Source of the DNA: Streptantibioticus rubrisoli
GTDB taxonomy: Bacteria; Actinomycetota; Actinomycetes; Streptomycetales; Streptomycetaceae
Direction: 5' to 3'
NCBI RefSeq assembly: GCF_024436055.1
Contig: NZ_JANFNH010000003.1
Coordinates: forward strand, 124,001 to 188,000
Length of the DNA stretch: 64,000 bases
Below are positions 34,303-41,123 of this stretch, piece after piece. Made by a program: the position numbers and the translations under genes. Each line of letters opens with the position of its first letter. Position 1 is the stretch's first letter. Below the pieces are notes generated by a model. That model did no database searches and had not been told where the DNA came from. It worked only from the letters and a program-made list of their open reading frames with translations.

Positions 34303-35667
34303 TTACGGGTGTGCGGTCATGACGGGTCGGCGTTGGGCTGTCGCGGTTGCTGCGGTTGCTGCGGTTGCTGCGGTTGCTGCGGCTGTCGCGGCTGTTGATC
34401 GGCGCGGGAACTCGGCGTCCACGGCGGTGGGTTGGGGTGGGCCGTCGGGGGCGTTGAGCACGGGTGGGAAGGGTGCCCCGGCCTCGATGAGGGCGGCGTA
34501 ACCGCCCAGTACCCGGGGGGAGTTGACGGCCACGGCGGCCACCAGCCGCCCGTCGCGCCCGTATGCGGCGACGAAGCGGCGCTGGGCCAGGGTGCCCTGG
34601 GTGATGACCACCTGGTCGGCGATGGCGGGCAGGCCCACGGACTTGCAGTTGACCCCGAACTGGTTGGACCAGAAGGCCGGTAGCGGCTGGTGGACCCGGT
34701 GGCCGCCGTGGGCCATGTTGTGCGCCGCGGTGCGGGCCTGGCGGACGGCGTTGTCCCAGTGGTCGAGCCGCAGCAACTGCCCGGGGTAGCGGGGGTGCGG
34801 CCAGCGGGCGATGTCGCCCGCGGCGAAGACCTCCGGTACGACGGCGCCGTCGGGAGTCAGCACCCGGCAGGTGGCGTCGCAGGTCACGCCGTGGTCGTCG
34901 ACGGCCAGGCCGGATCCGGCCAGCCAGCCGGTGTTGGCGACCGCGCCGGTCGCCACGACGGCCACCTCGGCCTCCACCGTGCTGCCGTCGGACAGCACCG
35001 CGCGCCGCAACCGGCCGTGCGAGTCGCCCTCCAGGGTGCGGACCGTGGTGTTCAGCCGCAGGTCGACTCCGGCGTCGCGGTACCAGTCGGCGGCGGCCCG
35101 GCCGACCACCCCGCCCAGCGCGCTCGCCAGCGGGGCCGCGCCGCGCTGGGTCACCGTCACCGCGAGGCCGAGGTCCCGGCAGGACGAGGCGACCTCGCCG
35201 CCGGTGAAGCCCGCGCCGATCACCAGCACCCGGTGCGGACCGGCGAGCAGCGCCGCGCGCAGCCGCTCGGCGTCCTCCCGGCCGCGCAGTACGTGGACGC
35301 CCCGCAGGCCGCCTCCGGCCTGCTCGGGCCATGGGCGGGCGCGGGTTCCGGTGGCGATCAGCAGCCGGTCGTACCGGATCCGGCGCCCGTCGGCCAGCAC
35401 CACCTGGCGGCCGGGCACGTCAAGGCCGGTCGCGGCGGTGCCCAGCAGCCAGTGGGCGTCGATGTCGCGCAGCCGGGGCAGCGTGGTGTGGTCGGCGGGC
35501 AGCCAGCCGGACAGCACCGCCTTCGACAGCGGGGGACGGTCGTACGGCTCATGCGGCTCGTCGCCGATCAGGGTCAGCTCGCCGGTGAACCCCTCGTCCC
35601 GCAGCGCCTCCGCGGCGCGCAGCCCGGCCAGCGAGGCACCGACCACCACGGTGCGGTCGGCCCTCAT
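34303..35667 (-). CDS. FAD-dependent NAD(P)H-ferredoxin reductase
   Basis: A 454-residue flavoprotein of the putidaredoxin-reductase type. The N-terminal FAD motif is TVVVGASLAGLRAAEAL, the NAD(P) motif is VLVIGAGFTGGEVAS near residue 150, and EVFAAGDIARWPHP contacts FAD. It transfers electrons from NAD(P)H to the ferredoxin encoded just upstream. ATGA overlap with the ferredoxin gene shows coupling. The C-terminal 45 residues are an Ala/Thr-rich tail encoded partly by a 9-base repeat, unlike the rest of the protein and probably disordered. Confidence 0.9.
   Translation of the reverse strand: MRADRTVVVGASLAGLRAAEALRDEGFTGELTLIGDEPHEPYDRPPLSKAVLSGWLPADHTTLPRLRDIDAHWLLGTAATGLDVPGRQVVLADGRRIRYDRLLIATGTRARPWPEQAGGGLRGVHVLRGREDAERLRAALLAGPHRVLVIGAGFTGGEVASSCRDLGLAVTVTQRGAAPLASALGGVVGRAAADWYRDAGVDLRLNTTVRTLEGDSHGRLRRAVLSDGSTVEAEVAVVATGAVANTGWLAGSGLAVDDHGVTCDATCRVLTPDGAVVPEVFAAGDIARWPHPRYPGQLLRLDHWDNAVRQARTAAHNMAHGGHRVHQPLPAFWSNQFGVNCKSVGLPAIADQVVITQGTLAQRRFVAAYGRDGRLVAAVAVNSPRVLGGYAALIEAGAPFPPVLNAPDGPPQPTAVDAEFPRRSTAATAAATAATAATAATATAQRRPVMTAHP
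34345..34380. repeat. four copies of a 9-base repeat in the reductase tail
   Basis: GGTTGCTGC is repeated four times exactly (34345-34380), followed by two degenerate copies. The unit is a multiple of three, so copy changes alter only the length of the Ala/Thr tail of the ferredoxin reductase. Confidence 0.9.
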
Positions 35668-35918
35668 CGGTCACTCCCCGCGCTCAGCGGCGACGGCTCG
35701 TTGGCCGCGCCCAGCGCTATGGCCTGTACCGGGCACGCGGCGGCGGCCCGCTCGACCTCGCGACGTGCGGCCTCGCCGGGCGCGTAGTCGTACTCCAGCG
35801 ACTCCTCGCCGTGGAACCGGAAGACCGTCGGTGCGGCGTAGACGCACTGGCCGTAGTTCTGGCAACGGTTCAGGTCCACCACAAGCCGGAGCGTGTCCGG
35901 TGGGGACTGCTTGGTCAT
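35664..35918 (-). CDS. ferredoxin (probable 3Fe-4S, P450 partner)
   Basis: An 84-residue ferredoxin with Cys residues in NRCQNYGQCVYAAP and a last one in AACPVQAI. The C-x5-C spacing with a missing fourth Cys is typical of the 3Fe-4S ferredoxins that feed actinobacterial P450s. ATG start with AAAGGGAGAG upstream. First gene of the operon, with an ATGA overlap to the reductase. It carries electrons from the reductase to the P450 two genes downstream. Confidence 0.9.
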   Translation of the reverse strand: MTKQSPPDTLRLVVDLNRCQNYGQCVYAAPTVFRFHGEESLEYDYAPGEAARREVERAAAACPVQAIALGAANEPSPLSAGSDR

Positions 35919-36008
35919 CTCTCTCCCTTTCCGCGGGGCGGCGTCCGCCCGCTGACCAGGGCCTGCGGCCCGGTCGTGCCCGGGCTCGGCATCGCGGGCG
36001 CAACTCAA

Positions 36009-36022
36009 ATAGTGGTCGCTAT
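36009..36022. promoter_or_regulatory. TetR-type operator copy 1
   Basis: ATAGTGGTCGCTAT, a 14-base near-palindrome (outer arms ATAG/CTAT). It differs at only two positions from the copy at 36053-36066. The two share the consensus ATAGYGGTCRCTAT, and their centres are 44 bases apart, about four helical turns. It lies on the side nearer the ferredoxin-P450 operon. Confidence 0.7.
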
Positions 36023-36047
36023 TCGGACTGTACACGCTATCGAGGCT

Positions 36048-37361: not shown

Positions 37362-37655
37362 CCGCGAACCACGTGCGCCGCAACGCTCCTGCCGGGTGAG
37401 GACGTTGGCGGTGGGACGGCCAGTCGGCCGCCAGCCACTCATCGCAAGTCCCGTCGGCCGACGCCGAGTTGGACCTGAGCCGCGTGGTGGAACTGGTCGG
37501 GCACATCTGCGCGATTACCCCTTGTCGGGAAGGCGCCGATGCGCTGGAATGCGTGAGCTTGTCGGGACGGGTGTTCCAGCAGCACGCACGCGTCCGACAA
37601 CCGAACGCGTGGGCCTGGCACACCCCCTGACGTCTTTCCAGACGAAAGGATGTCG

Positions 37656-40600
37656 ATGTTCGGCTGGCGGAAACCGCAGCTGGCAGGCGTCACCTTGGCC
37701 GCCGCGTCCATGGTCCTCACCTTCGGGACCACCGCGAACGGCGCTCCGTTGACTTCTGCACCGAACGCACAGGCGCTCTCGGACAACAGAGCGCCCACAC
37801 CTGTGATCGTTATCCTCAAGGACCAGATCCCCAACGCCCCCGCCGACTCAGGGCACTTGAAGACCCGGGCCAAGGAGGCGGCCGCCGCCCAGGCCCCGCT
37901 GCTGGCGAAGGTCAAGGCGAACGGCGGCACGCACATCAAGACCTTCGTGGTCGGCAACGCCTTCTCGGCGGCCGTCAGCCCGGCGCTGCGCGCCGCCCTG
38001 GCGGCCGACCCCGCCGTCGCCTCGGTCGTCCCGGACGAGACGGTGAAGGTGACCCCGCCGAGCGCCGCCGCACCGGGACCCCAGGGCGGCGCGAAGGGGC
38101 CGACGGCCGTCACCCCCAACGCCAGGGCGAACGGCAACGGGAAGAACCCGTACGCCATCTGCCCCAGCGACCCGTCCAAGCCGCTGCTGGAGCCCGAGGC
38201 GCTGTACTCGACGCATGTCGAGGGCACCCCCGGCTCGCCCGGCGCCCACCAGATCGCCACCGGCAAGGGCGTCAAGGTCGCCTACATCGCGGACGGCCTC
38301 GACCCCGACGCCCCGGACTTCATACGCCCCGACGGCACGCACGCGGTCGTCGACCACCAGGACTTCTCGGGCGACGGCTGGGACGCGCCGAGCGGCGCCG
38401 CGGAGGCGTTCGGCGACGCCTCCGCGATGATCGCGCAGGGCCGGGAGAGCTACGACCTGTCGAAGTTCGTCAACCCCACCCACCCGCTGCCCGCCGGATG
38501 CAACATCCGTATCGAAGGTTTCGCGCCCGACGCGTCACTGGTGGCCCTCAAGGCCGGTGGCTCCACGTTCCCCAACTCGGCGATCCTGCAGTCCATCGAC
38601 TACGCCGTCTCGGTCGCCCACGTCGACGTGCTCAACGAGTCGTTCGGCAGCAACGTCACCCCGGACAGCGGTGCGCACGACACCATCTCGCTGTTCAACG
38701 ACGCGGCGGTGGCCGCCGGTGTGACGGTGACCGTCTCCAGCGGCGACGCCGGAATCAACAGCACCATCGGCACCCCGTCCACCGACCCGCACGTGATCTC
38801 CACGGGTGCCTCGACGGACAACCAGACGTATCTGCAAACCGGTTACGCCGCCGCCCAGTTCTCCAACGGCACCTGGGCCGACAACCGCATCTCCGCGCTG
38901 TCCTCCGGTGGCTTCACCCAGGCCGGACGCACCGTGGACCTGGTCGCGCCGGGTGAGGCGGACTGGGCGCTGTGCTCGCCGAAGATCAGCGAGTACACCG
39001 AGTGCACCAACTTCAACGGCACCGGCAGCGCGATCCAGCCGTTCGGCGGCACCAGCCAGTCCGCCCCGCTGACCGCGGGTGCGGCCGCCCTGGTGATCCA
39101 GGCCTACCGGGACAGCCACCACGGCCAGTCGCCGACTCCCGCGCTGGTCAAGCAGCTCCTCACCGGCACCGCCAGCGACCTCGGCCTGCCCGCCCAGGAG
39201 CAGGGCGCCGGTCTGCTGAACGTACGCGGCGCGGTGGAGGCCGCCCGCGGCTACCACAGCCCCTCGGGCGCCAAGCAGAGCGACACCCTCGCCGTCACCA
39301 CCGGCCAGCAGGACATCACCGGCACTCCGGGCTCCAGCCACACCGCCAACGTCACCGTCGTCAACACCGGCCACACCACCCAGACGGTGACCGGCGCCAC
39401 CCGTACCTTCGCGCCGCTGGCGAACTCCCGGCAGACCGTGCGGCTGAACTCCTCCACCGACCCGAAGTTCGCCTACGCCACCAACGGCGCGAGCTGGGTG
39501 CACCACGAGGTGAAGTTCACCGTGCCGCCGGGTGCCGACCGGCTCGCCGCGTCGATCGCCTGGCAGGGCAAGCCGCAGAAGTCGGGCGCCAACACCGTGA
39601 CCCCGGTGGTCCGGATGACGCTGCTGGACCCCTCGGGCAGGTTGGAGACCAACACCCGTCCGCAGGGCGGCCCGGTATCGGCCAACTTCGGCATCGTTGA
39701 CGTACCGCAGCCGGTCGCGGGCCAGTGGACGGCGATCTTCTACACCCCCGCGGGCAGTAACGGCTTCACCGGTCCGGTGCTGCTGGACACCGCAACCCAG
39801 CGCGCGGTGCCGGACGGTTCGGTCAGCCCGGAGGTGACCAGGCTCGCGCCGGGGCAGAGCACCACCTTGCGCGTCCACCTCACCACCCCGACGACCAGCG
39901 GTGACAGCGCCGAGTCGATCACCGTCGCCGGGTCGGACGGCCACACCACCAGCGTCCCGGTGATCCTGCGCAGCCTGATCCCGATCTCCGGCAAGGGCGG
40001 CGACTTCACCGGCACGATCACCGGCGGCAACGCCCGTGACTACTCGCCCGCGCAGTCCTTCAGCTACGCCTTCGACGTCCCCTCCGGCCACCGCGACATC
40101 CGCGCCGGTGTGACGCTGAGCGACCCCGACGTGCTGGTGCAGGGCTCGCTGATCAGCCCGAACGGCACGCCCGTTGACATCGAGAGCAACGCGCTGCTCA
40201 ACGCCTCCGGCGCGCTGACCGGTACCGCGCGCGGCGTGTCGGCCACCGCGGTCAACCCGGCGGCCGGTCGCTGGCGGTTCGTGCTGACCGTCGTCAACCC
40301 GGTCAGCGGCGCCGAGCTGAACGAGCCGTTCCATGGCACCGTCGGCCTTGACCAGGACCAGGCGACCGCCACCGGCCTGCCGGACAACGTCAGCGCCAAG
40401 CTGGCGGCGAACAAGTCCACCACGGTGCACGTGACGTACACCAACAACACCGCGGCCACCCAGATGATCCAGGCCGACGGTCGGCTGACCACGATGGTGG
40501 ACGTCCCGCTGGTGCCGCAGGGCACCTCGGCCACCGTCGCGCTGCCGCTGCACCCGACCTCGACGACCCCGGGCTTCCTGGTGCCCCCGGGCACCGACCG

Positions 40601-41123
40601 GTTGACCTCCGTCGCGGCCTCCTCGACGCCCGCGCAACTGGAGTTGAGCGCCACCGCCGGTTCGCCGGACTCCTTCGGTGACCTCAAGCAGGCGCAGGAC
40701 GGTTCGACCGTCTCGGTCGTCAAGGACTTCGGCAGCGCCAAGCAGCCGGTGGTTCCGGGCTTCTGGAGCAGCTACGTCCAGCAGATCGGCCCGTTCCCGG
40801 CCGCCGGTGCGCCGACCGGTACGTCGACCATCACCGCCAGCGCCCACACCCAGGCGTTCGACCCGGCGGTGACCTCCAGCACCAACGACCCGTTCGCGCT
40901 CGCGGTGAACGCCTCGGCCCCGGCCGTCAACCCGGTCGCCGTCAAGCCCGGCGCCACCGGCTCGCTGGACGTCACCATCACCCCGCGCGGCACGCAGGGC
41001 AGCACCGTGCACGGCGTGCTGTACCTGGTGACCGCTCCGGGCGGTGTGGCCACCGCCAACAACCAGATCGGCACCACCGGTTCGGTTCTGGCGGCGATCC
41101 CGTACAGCTACACCGTCGACTGA
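37656..41123 (+). CDS. large secreted S8/S53-like serine peptidase with beta-sandwich tail
   Basis: An 1155-residue exported protease. A signal peptide is followed by an inhibitor-like propeptide (VIVILKDQIPNAP to DPAVASVVPDETVKV). The catalytic domain at about residues 200-510 has VAYIADGLDPD, GFAPDASLVALKAG, NESFG (Asn327) and GGTSQSAPLTAG (Ser469). The HGTH box of subtilisins is missing; at its place stands AEAFGDASAMIA with Glu250 and Asp254, the Glu-x3-Asp spacing of sedolisins. The rest, about 600 residues, looks like several beta-sandwich domains. I prefer the ATG at 37656 since GAAAGGA lies 5 bases upstream; the ATG at 37650 is too close. A terminator follows. Confidence 0.85.
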   Translation: MFGWRKPQLAGVTLAAASMVLTFGTTANGAPLTSAPNAQALSDNRAPTPVIVILKDQIPNAPADSGHLKTRAKEAAAAQAPLLAKVKANGGTHIKTFVVGNAFSAAVSPALRAALAADPAVASVVPDETVKVTPPSAAAPGPQGGAKGPTAVTPNARANGNGKNPYAICPSDPSKPLLEPEALYSTHVEGTPGSPGAHQIATGKGVKVAYIADGLDPDAPDFIRPDGTHAVVDHQDFSGDGWDAPSGAAEAFGDASAMIAQGRESYDLSKFVNPTHPLPAGCNIRIEGFAPDASLVALKAGGSTFPNSAILQSIDYAVSVAHVDVLNESFGSNVTPDSGAHDTISLFNDAAVAAGVTVTVSSGDAGINSTIGTPSTDPHVISTGASTDNQTYLQTGYAAAQFSNGTWADNRISALSSGGFTQAGRTVDLVAPGEADWALCSPKISEYTECTNFNGTGSAIQPFGGTSQSAPLTAGAAALVIQAYRDSHHGQSPTPALVKQLLTGTASDLGLPAQEQGAGLLNVRGAVEAARGYHSPSGAKQSDTLAVTTGQQDITGTPGSSHTANVTVVNTGHTTQTVTGATRTFAPLANSRQTVRLNSSTDPKFAYATNGASWVHHEVKFTVPPGADRLAASIAWQGKPQKSGANTVTPVVRMTLLDPSGRLETNTRPQGGPVSANFGIVDVPQPVAGQWTAIFYTPAGSNGFTGPVLLDTATQRAVPDGSVSPEVTRLAPGQSTTLRVHLTTPTTSGDSAESITVAGSDGHTTSVPVILRSLIPISGKGGDFTGTITGGNARDYSPAQSFSYAFDVPSGHRDIRAGVTLSDPDVLVQGSLISPNGTPVDIESNALLNASGALTGTARGVSATAVNPAAGRWRFVLTVVNPVSGAELNEPFHGTVGLDQDQATATGLPDNVSAKLAANKSTTVHVTYTNNTAATQMIQADGRLTTMVDVPLVPQGTSATVALPLHPTSTTPGFLVPPGTDRLTSVAASSTPAQLELSATAGSPDSFGDLKQAQDGSTVSVVKDFGSAKQPVVPGFWSSYVQQIGPFPAAGAPTGTSTITASAHTQAFDPAVTSSTNDPFALAVNASAPAVNPVAVKPGATGSLDVTITPRGTQGSTVHGVLYLVTAPGGVATANNQIGTTGSVLAAIPYSYTVD

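Follow-up and report, generated by a model that had tools for sequence, protein, structure and literature searches.

Subtilisins (family S8) and sedolisins (family S53) share a common fold and use a different base. A D-E-S subset of prokaryotic subtilases, with a Glu on the helix and an Asp on the strand, is said to have been described by Siezen et al. 2007. In papers citing Siezen 2007, the term ED-S is used for S53. According to an excerpt of PMC11593635, serine-carboxyl proteinases are marked by a Glu as base, by Glu-X3-Asp on one helix and by the replacement of the oxyanion Asn by Asp. In sedolisins, the Glu and the oxyanion Asp occupy positions homologous to those of the subtilisin residues, unlike the acid Asp (excerpt of PMC6278154), and in simulations of kumamolisin, Glu78 and Asp164 are proton carriers during catalysis (excerpt of PMC8004986). 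S53 enzymes are enriched in archaeal acidophiles (excerpt of PMC6411800). In addition, the enzyme E40 of Actinoallomurus A8, a protein of 398 aa placed in S53 by its authors, has an Asp, Glu, Ser triad with a further Asp and is active at pH 3-6 (excerpt of PMC6739405).

The peptidase described here is encoded in the window, the whole stretch of 64,000 nucleotides of Streptantibioticus rubrisoli DNA that was analysed. Its family shares with S53 (sedolisin, kumamolisin; ED-S) a Glu on the helix as putative base, an Asp at +4, an oxyanion Asp and a Ser in GGTS. S53 enzymes, however, have a Pro-kuma prodomain and a C-terminal GYDxxTGxG, neither of which was found in the family. The distance between the Glu and the Pro of the AP(G/D)A strand is 41 residues in the window peptidase compared with about 13 in the S53 rows (counted by eye); the family also holds Ala where S53 rows hold Asp or Asn, and its sequence is nearer to S8. 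The predicted fold, the I9-like prodomain, the C-terminal part of the domain and the PF00082 match are shared with S8A (subtilisin BPN', Vpr, Tk-SP), but the S8A residues Asp32, His64 and Asn155 have no equivalents. The D-E-S subset, compared by its general description only, has the replacement of His by Glu and an acidic residue on the strand in common with the family, which differs in having an extra, invariant Asp four residues after the Glu on the same helix. E40, likened by description only, shares an actinomycete origin and an Asp/Glu/Ser triad with an extra Asp. With a probability of roughly 70%, the window gene encodes a secreted, self-processing peptidase that combines a subtilisin fold and an I9-like prodomain with a sedolisin-type (serine-carboxyl) active site. 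A preliminary description of the locus had proposed an S8-type peptidase with a sedolisin-like Glu/Asp pair in place of the catalytic His; what it observed is partly confirmed, and its interpretation is partly supported.

Gene structure and predicted fold

The gene product is a probably secreted clan-SB serine peptidase (Table 1). GAAAGG abuts the first ATG of the gene, and because it ends right at this ATG, the second ATG (37656) is regarded as an alternative start. The S8-type peptidase lacking an HGTH box that had been described earlier was recovered, with a PF00082 match and with HGTH absent at the expected place; 36 of the 37 family members match this profile. The E-A-F-G-D pair was also found, but its earlier numbering as 250/254 does not hold when counted from the first ATG, from which the numbering of Ser469, in GGTS469QSAP, is correct. 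Counted from the second ATG, the pair is indeed 250/254, but the Ser becomes Ser467. The prodomain profile PF05922 matches the window peptidase with E 0.0041 (whole protein) and E 0.0015 (19.6 bits, residues 40-545), both below the Pfam cut-off of 21.2 bits.

Table 1. Features of the peptidase gene and its product, in window positions.
Feature	Position	Strand	Basis
Peptidase coding sequence, 1157 aa	37650..41123	+	open frame of 1157 codons
Probable signal peptide, residues 1-32	37650..37745	+	basic start, hydrophobic stretch, ANGA, by eye
Inhibitor_I9-type prodomain, residues about 49-134	37794..38051	+	PF05922 matches in relatives; 3whi alignment
Catalytic domain, residues 205-521	38262..39212	+	PF00082 (Peptidase_S8) match, E 2.5e-23
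Ala214-Asp215: Ala at subtilisin Asp32 position, acidic neighbour	38289..38294	+	alignment
Glu252-Ala-Phe-Gly-Asp256, putative base and acid, sharing a helix	38403..38417	+	alignment, model
Asp366, oxyanion residue replacing subtilisin Asn155	38745..38747	+	profile and three-group alignments
Ser469, nucleophile in GGTSQSAP, start of helix 468-489	39054..39056	+	alignment, model
His490, sole invariant His of domain, probably structural	39117..39119	+	alignment, model
C-terminal region, residues 546-1157	39285..41120	+	weak Ig/Fn3-like matches

An AlphaFold2 model of residues 40-545 was obtained using 37 sequences (pLDDT 76.3, pTM 0.83), in which Glu252 and Asp256 lie on helix 251-261. Compared with the PDB, the best 50 entries listed have Z values from 34.5 to 32.4 and are all taken to be subtilases. 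The model matches Vpr with an rmsd of 2.8 over 294 residues and BPN' with an rmsd of about 2.0 over about 262 residues (Z about 32.6). Pro-subtilisin E (3whi) aligns over 332 residues, prodomain included, with an rmsd of 2.6 and 28% identity, and this alignment starts at model residue 9, which is protein residue 48. An S53 entry is absent among the best 50 matches listed, for the full model and for the fragment described below alike, with S53 matches possible further down.

The register of the helix was taken from the fold of a fragment because sequence alignments failed to place it. MAFFT paired Asp256 with the catalytic His in 32/32 S8 rows and broke up the S53 helix, hhalign left the family helix unaligned with the S53 helix, and both alignments were rejected for this purpose. 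A fragment model starting at A250 has a middling pLDDT of 70.9 (67-70 in its first blocks) and a pTM of 0.78. Its alignments start at fragment residue 1 in all 50 rows listed, and this residue (A250) pairs with chain residue 62 in 27 of them. Two rows start at 61 and two at 60, which look like the same place in gaplessly numbered entries, and the remaining 19 of the 50 are numbered otherwise, with starts at, for example, residue 66 (KP-43), 151 (Tk-subtilisin) or 247 (site-1 protease). The catalytic His of these three enzymes is His68, His153 and His249, respectively, each lying two residues after the start of the alignment. With A250 on subtilisin residue 62, Glu252 is therefore predicted to fall on the catalytic His64 and Asp256 on residue 68, in a register that is set only by the first aligned pair and assumes no gap within the first residues. 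The predicted structure thereby supports the earlier proposal of a Glu in place of the catalytic His.

Conserved residues and candidate mechanism

The final family alignment comprises 44 rows (43 distinct, window included), of which one is missing at each column discussed. The rows are unevenly related, with many close streptomycete copies; two of them (L064 and L067) are fragments of one genome, and two others (L060 and L066) are two genes of another. Glu252, Ser469 and Asp256, the Asp at +4 pointed out before, are each present in 43/43 covering rows, a constancy beyond chance. Asp366 is present in 42/43, and the sole exception (L024) falls in a garbled stretch that reads as frame-shifted. 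In this gene, from Streptacidiphilus sp. 4-A2 (L024:5001-5993), the frame seems to shift near the oxyanion motif and then to return.

When the family profile is aligned to subtilisins, SSGD366AG falls on the GN(E/S) segment that holds the oxyanion Asn155. The same column of a three-group alignment holds Asp in 25/25 family rows and 19/19 S53 rows, and Asn in 32/32 S8 rows. The NESFG motif (N329), which had been put forward as subtilisin-like, is thus not the oxyanion motif, since the oxyanion column (Asn155, GNEG) is occupied by Asp366. This residue was overlooked in the preliminary description, and it strengthens the case for a sedolisin-type active site. A separate catalytic class, suggested there as one option, finds no support in the tetrad, which is the known one of sedolisin.

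By analogy, the simplest mechanism for the window peptidase would be that of sedolisin. We infer activity, secretion and autoprocessing, as well as the residue roles and the pH optimum, along the following lines. Ser469 would attack the peptide bond, with Glu252, in place of His64, as the general base/acid. Asp256, a turn further along the helix, would support Glu252 and take over the work of Asp32, and a protonated Asp366, in place of Asn155, would help to hold the oxyanion. Such a carboxylate set should favour acid pH. The domain has a median pI of 4.4 in the family (25 rows), 4.5 in S53 (19 rows) and 5.0 in S8 (32 rows); the low value of the family fits acid conditions and proves nothing.

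The acid partner of Glu252 could also be sought on the strand. At position 214, which corresponds to subtilisin Asp32, the family has Ala (40), Pro (2) or Gly (1) in 43 rows and never Asp. The Asp32 column of the three-group alignment holds Asp in 29 of 32 S8 rows (with 3 gaps), and Asp (12) or Asn (7) in 19 S53 rows, so the Ala of the family differs from S8 and S53 alike. The adjoining position 215 is Asp in 35, Glu in 7 and Val in 1 of 43 rows, and is thus acidic in 42/43, as if it were important too. In a D-E-S arrangement, like that of the subset reportedly described by Siezen et al. 2007, in which the Glu lies on the helix and the Asp on a strand, Asp215 would be the partner of Glu252 and Asp256 would be structural. 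This arrangement is unlikely: Asp256 is found in 43/43 rows, whereas position 215 tolerates Glu, and Val in a member (L065) that keeps Glu and Asp on the helix. The +4 spacing of Glu252 and Asp256 is, in addition, the sedolisin spacing (excerpt of PMC11593635). The same member is the most divergent one seen, with E-W-Y-G-D on the helix, and only the helix Asp remains in it of the two candidate acids.

Some Csp germination proteins are known to be pseudoproteases. The window peptidase could likewise have lost the Asp-His-Ser triad and bind instead of cutting, since His64, Asp32 and Asn155 are all replaced, and the NCBIfam models CspBA (E 0.0066) and CspC (E 0.042) match weakly, far below their cut-offs. 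The constancy of Ser469, however, is shared by the residues that replace the triad, these match one known working active site, and the I9-like prodomain is retained, which makes a pseudoprotease improbable. Even further from the evidence would be an ordinary D-H-S subtilase with a His supplied from elsewhere. Such an enzyme would agree with the overall likeness to S8 only. The sole invariant His of the domain, His490 (43/43 covering rows), stands just beyond the C-terminal end of the Ser469 helix in the model, and because it is located just after this long helix, it is unlikely to substitute for the catalytic His. H324 is present in 36/39 rows, and the remaining His positions vary more. A His placed next to Ser469 from elsewhere, by which the preliminary description could have been overturned, is thus unlikely as far as conservation and the model show, and an ordinary triad is barely credible.

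Comparison with S8 and S53

A sedolisin-type active site raises the possibility that the peptidase is a plain, divergent S53 sedolisin. All four S53 catalytic residues are present in the family, and GGTS is found in 38/38 covering family rows, as in the S53 rows. In the host genome, PF00082 gives three S8 genes 168-192 bits and the window peptidase 88; four genes that carry S53 motifs reach 31-60 and also exceed the cut-off, so PF00082 cannot separate S8 from S53. A profile comparison gave 261 for S8 and 67 for S53, with S8 rows that had been chosen by their likeness to the family. Since most of these rows came from matching the family profile, the comparison was checked against three S8 genes that the host genome itself carries, and here the score was 151 (E 1.7e-21) for S8 versus 91 (3 rows) and 93 (19 rows) for S53, with E about 4e-12. 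In addition, the 60 sequences listed, out of 120 PDB matches to the family profile, bear names of S8 enzymes.

The Pro-kuma prodomain PF09286 was found in 0/37 family members at E <=0.01, as against 21/37 for PF05922 at the same threshold (best 3.6e-8). The motif G[YFW]DxxTGxG, which we take as a stand-in for the C-terminal calcium site of S53, is present in 17/19 S53 rows, compared with 0/38 family frames (L067 ends before that part) and 0/32 S8 rows. The profile scores, the PDB names, the prodomain and the C-terminal motif all argue against a plain S53 sedolisin, which is therefore very improbable.

With respect to S53, the window peptidase has the Glu at the His64 position on the helix (in the predicted register), the Asp at +4 and the oxyanion Asp, and it lacks the PF09286 prodomain and the C-terminal motif. 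With respect to S8, it has the predicted subtilisin fold with an I9 prodomain and the PF00082 match, and it lacks Asp32, His64 and the oxyanion Asn155. It fails both families alike on defining points. Its mode of action is probably that of a sedolisin although it is no typical member of S53, with the S53 catalytic tetrad on an S8-like scaffold, as far as the model indicates; it is likely to be active and may prefer acid conditions.

Besides its three ordinary S8 genes, the host genome encodes four proteins with S53 motifs (G000:C13, C18 and C16; L070/L092, L093, L094 and L095). Two of these have a Pro-kuma prodomain match, and two are shorter and without one.

Distribution, possible origin and significance

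One scan of genome contigs yielded 28 loci, 27 of which belong to the family; the other (L029) is an ordinary HGTH subtilase. Further relatives came from a plasmid collection (one) and from genome samples (more). Members have been found in Streptomyces, Kitasatospora, Streptantibioticus, Solihabitans and others, and in one Terriglobia MAG. Genomes with a match at E <=1e-40 number 8/345 in the class, 5/198 in the class of G166, 3/13 in the order of G440 and 1/24 in the class of G092, in samples that overlap partly. In a phylum sample, 27/396 genomes pass 1e-15. Three of these 27 are at E 1e-100 or better, all with S(S/T)GDAG, and the other 24 match more weakly, at 6.9e-23 at best, and almost all of them have an HG[TS] stretch. 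A family copy lies on plasmid pSCAT of Streptantibioticus cattleyicolor; the record in the plasmid collection, with one feature in its whole table, has no annotated feature for this copy. In Solihabitans fulvus, a partial frame like an S53 sedolisin (L028:1-786, +) lies upstream of the family member. Among the papers listed in literature searches (some lists giving 10-20 of up to 35), none was recognisable as a description of the peptidase family, and an earlier one in Siezen 2007 is possible.

A tree was built from 76 rows (25 family, 32 S8, 19 S53), with the helix region and two trait columns omitted and with L002 (97% identical) as a stand-in for the window row. The family is on one side of a branch with a support of 100/100, and S53 likewise. 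Without a constraint, the tree places the family within S8 next to L054/L055, with a support of no more than 83/85 and where long branches meet. Only 6% of 200 bootstrap trees set S8 apart on one side of a branch, a result that tells against an intermediate position of the family. A tree that keeps S8 together scored 2.57 higher and was not rejected (p-AU 0.576). Both an intermediate and a convergent origin are compatible with the trees. Of the S8/S53 intermediate proposed in the preliminary description, the mixed features are real; an evolutionary intermediate is neither shown nor excluded by the trees.

Tentatively, and at somewhat less than even odds, the family may be a third line of clan SB, a subtilisin-type protein with its prodomain that either diverged at a point between S8 and S53 or gained the complete sedolisin tetrad independently. 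Along such a line, Glu would have come in for His64, a new Asp at +4 and an Asp for Asn155, with Ser kept and Asp32 given up, perhaps with a two-acid stage (215 and 256) on the way.

Neighbouring genes with Pfam matches encode a ferredoxin reductase, a ferredoxin, TetR, PadR and an acyl-CoA dehydrogenase, and they suggest no functional link with the peptidase. The ferredoxin reductase and ferredoxin genes are located near the peptidase on the opposite strand (window 34303-36035, -).

On the question of how subtilisin turned into sedolisin, or the reverse, a family with the scaffold and prodomain type of S8 and all four S53 residues offers either a naturally occurring midpoint or an instance of convergence, and its second acid (215) varies across members. 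The family also illustrates that a PF00082 label leaves the catalytic residues undecided, and it is a possible source of acid-active proteases. If the reading as a third line is true, the way in which a serine protease with a His base became one with a Glu base could be put to experimental test.
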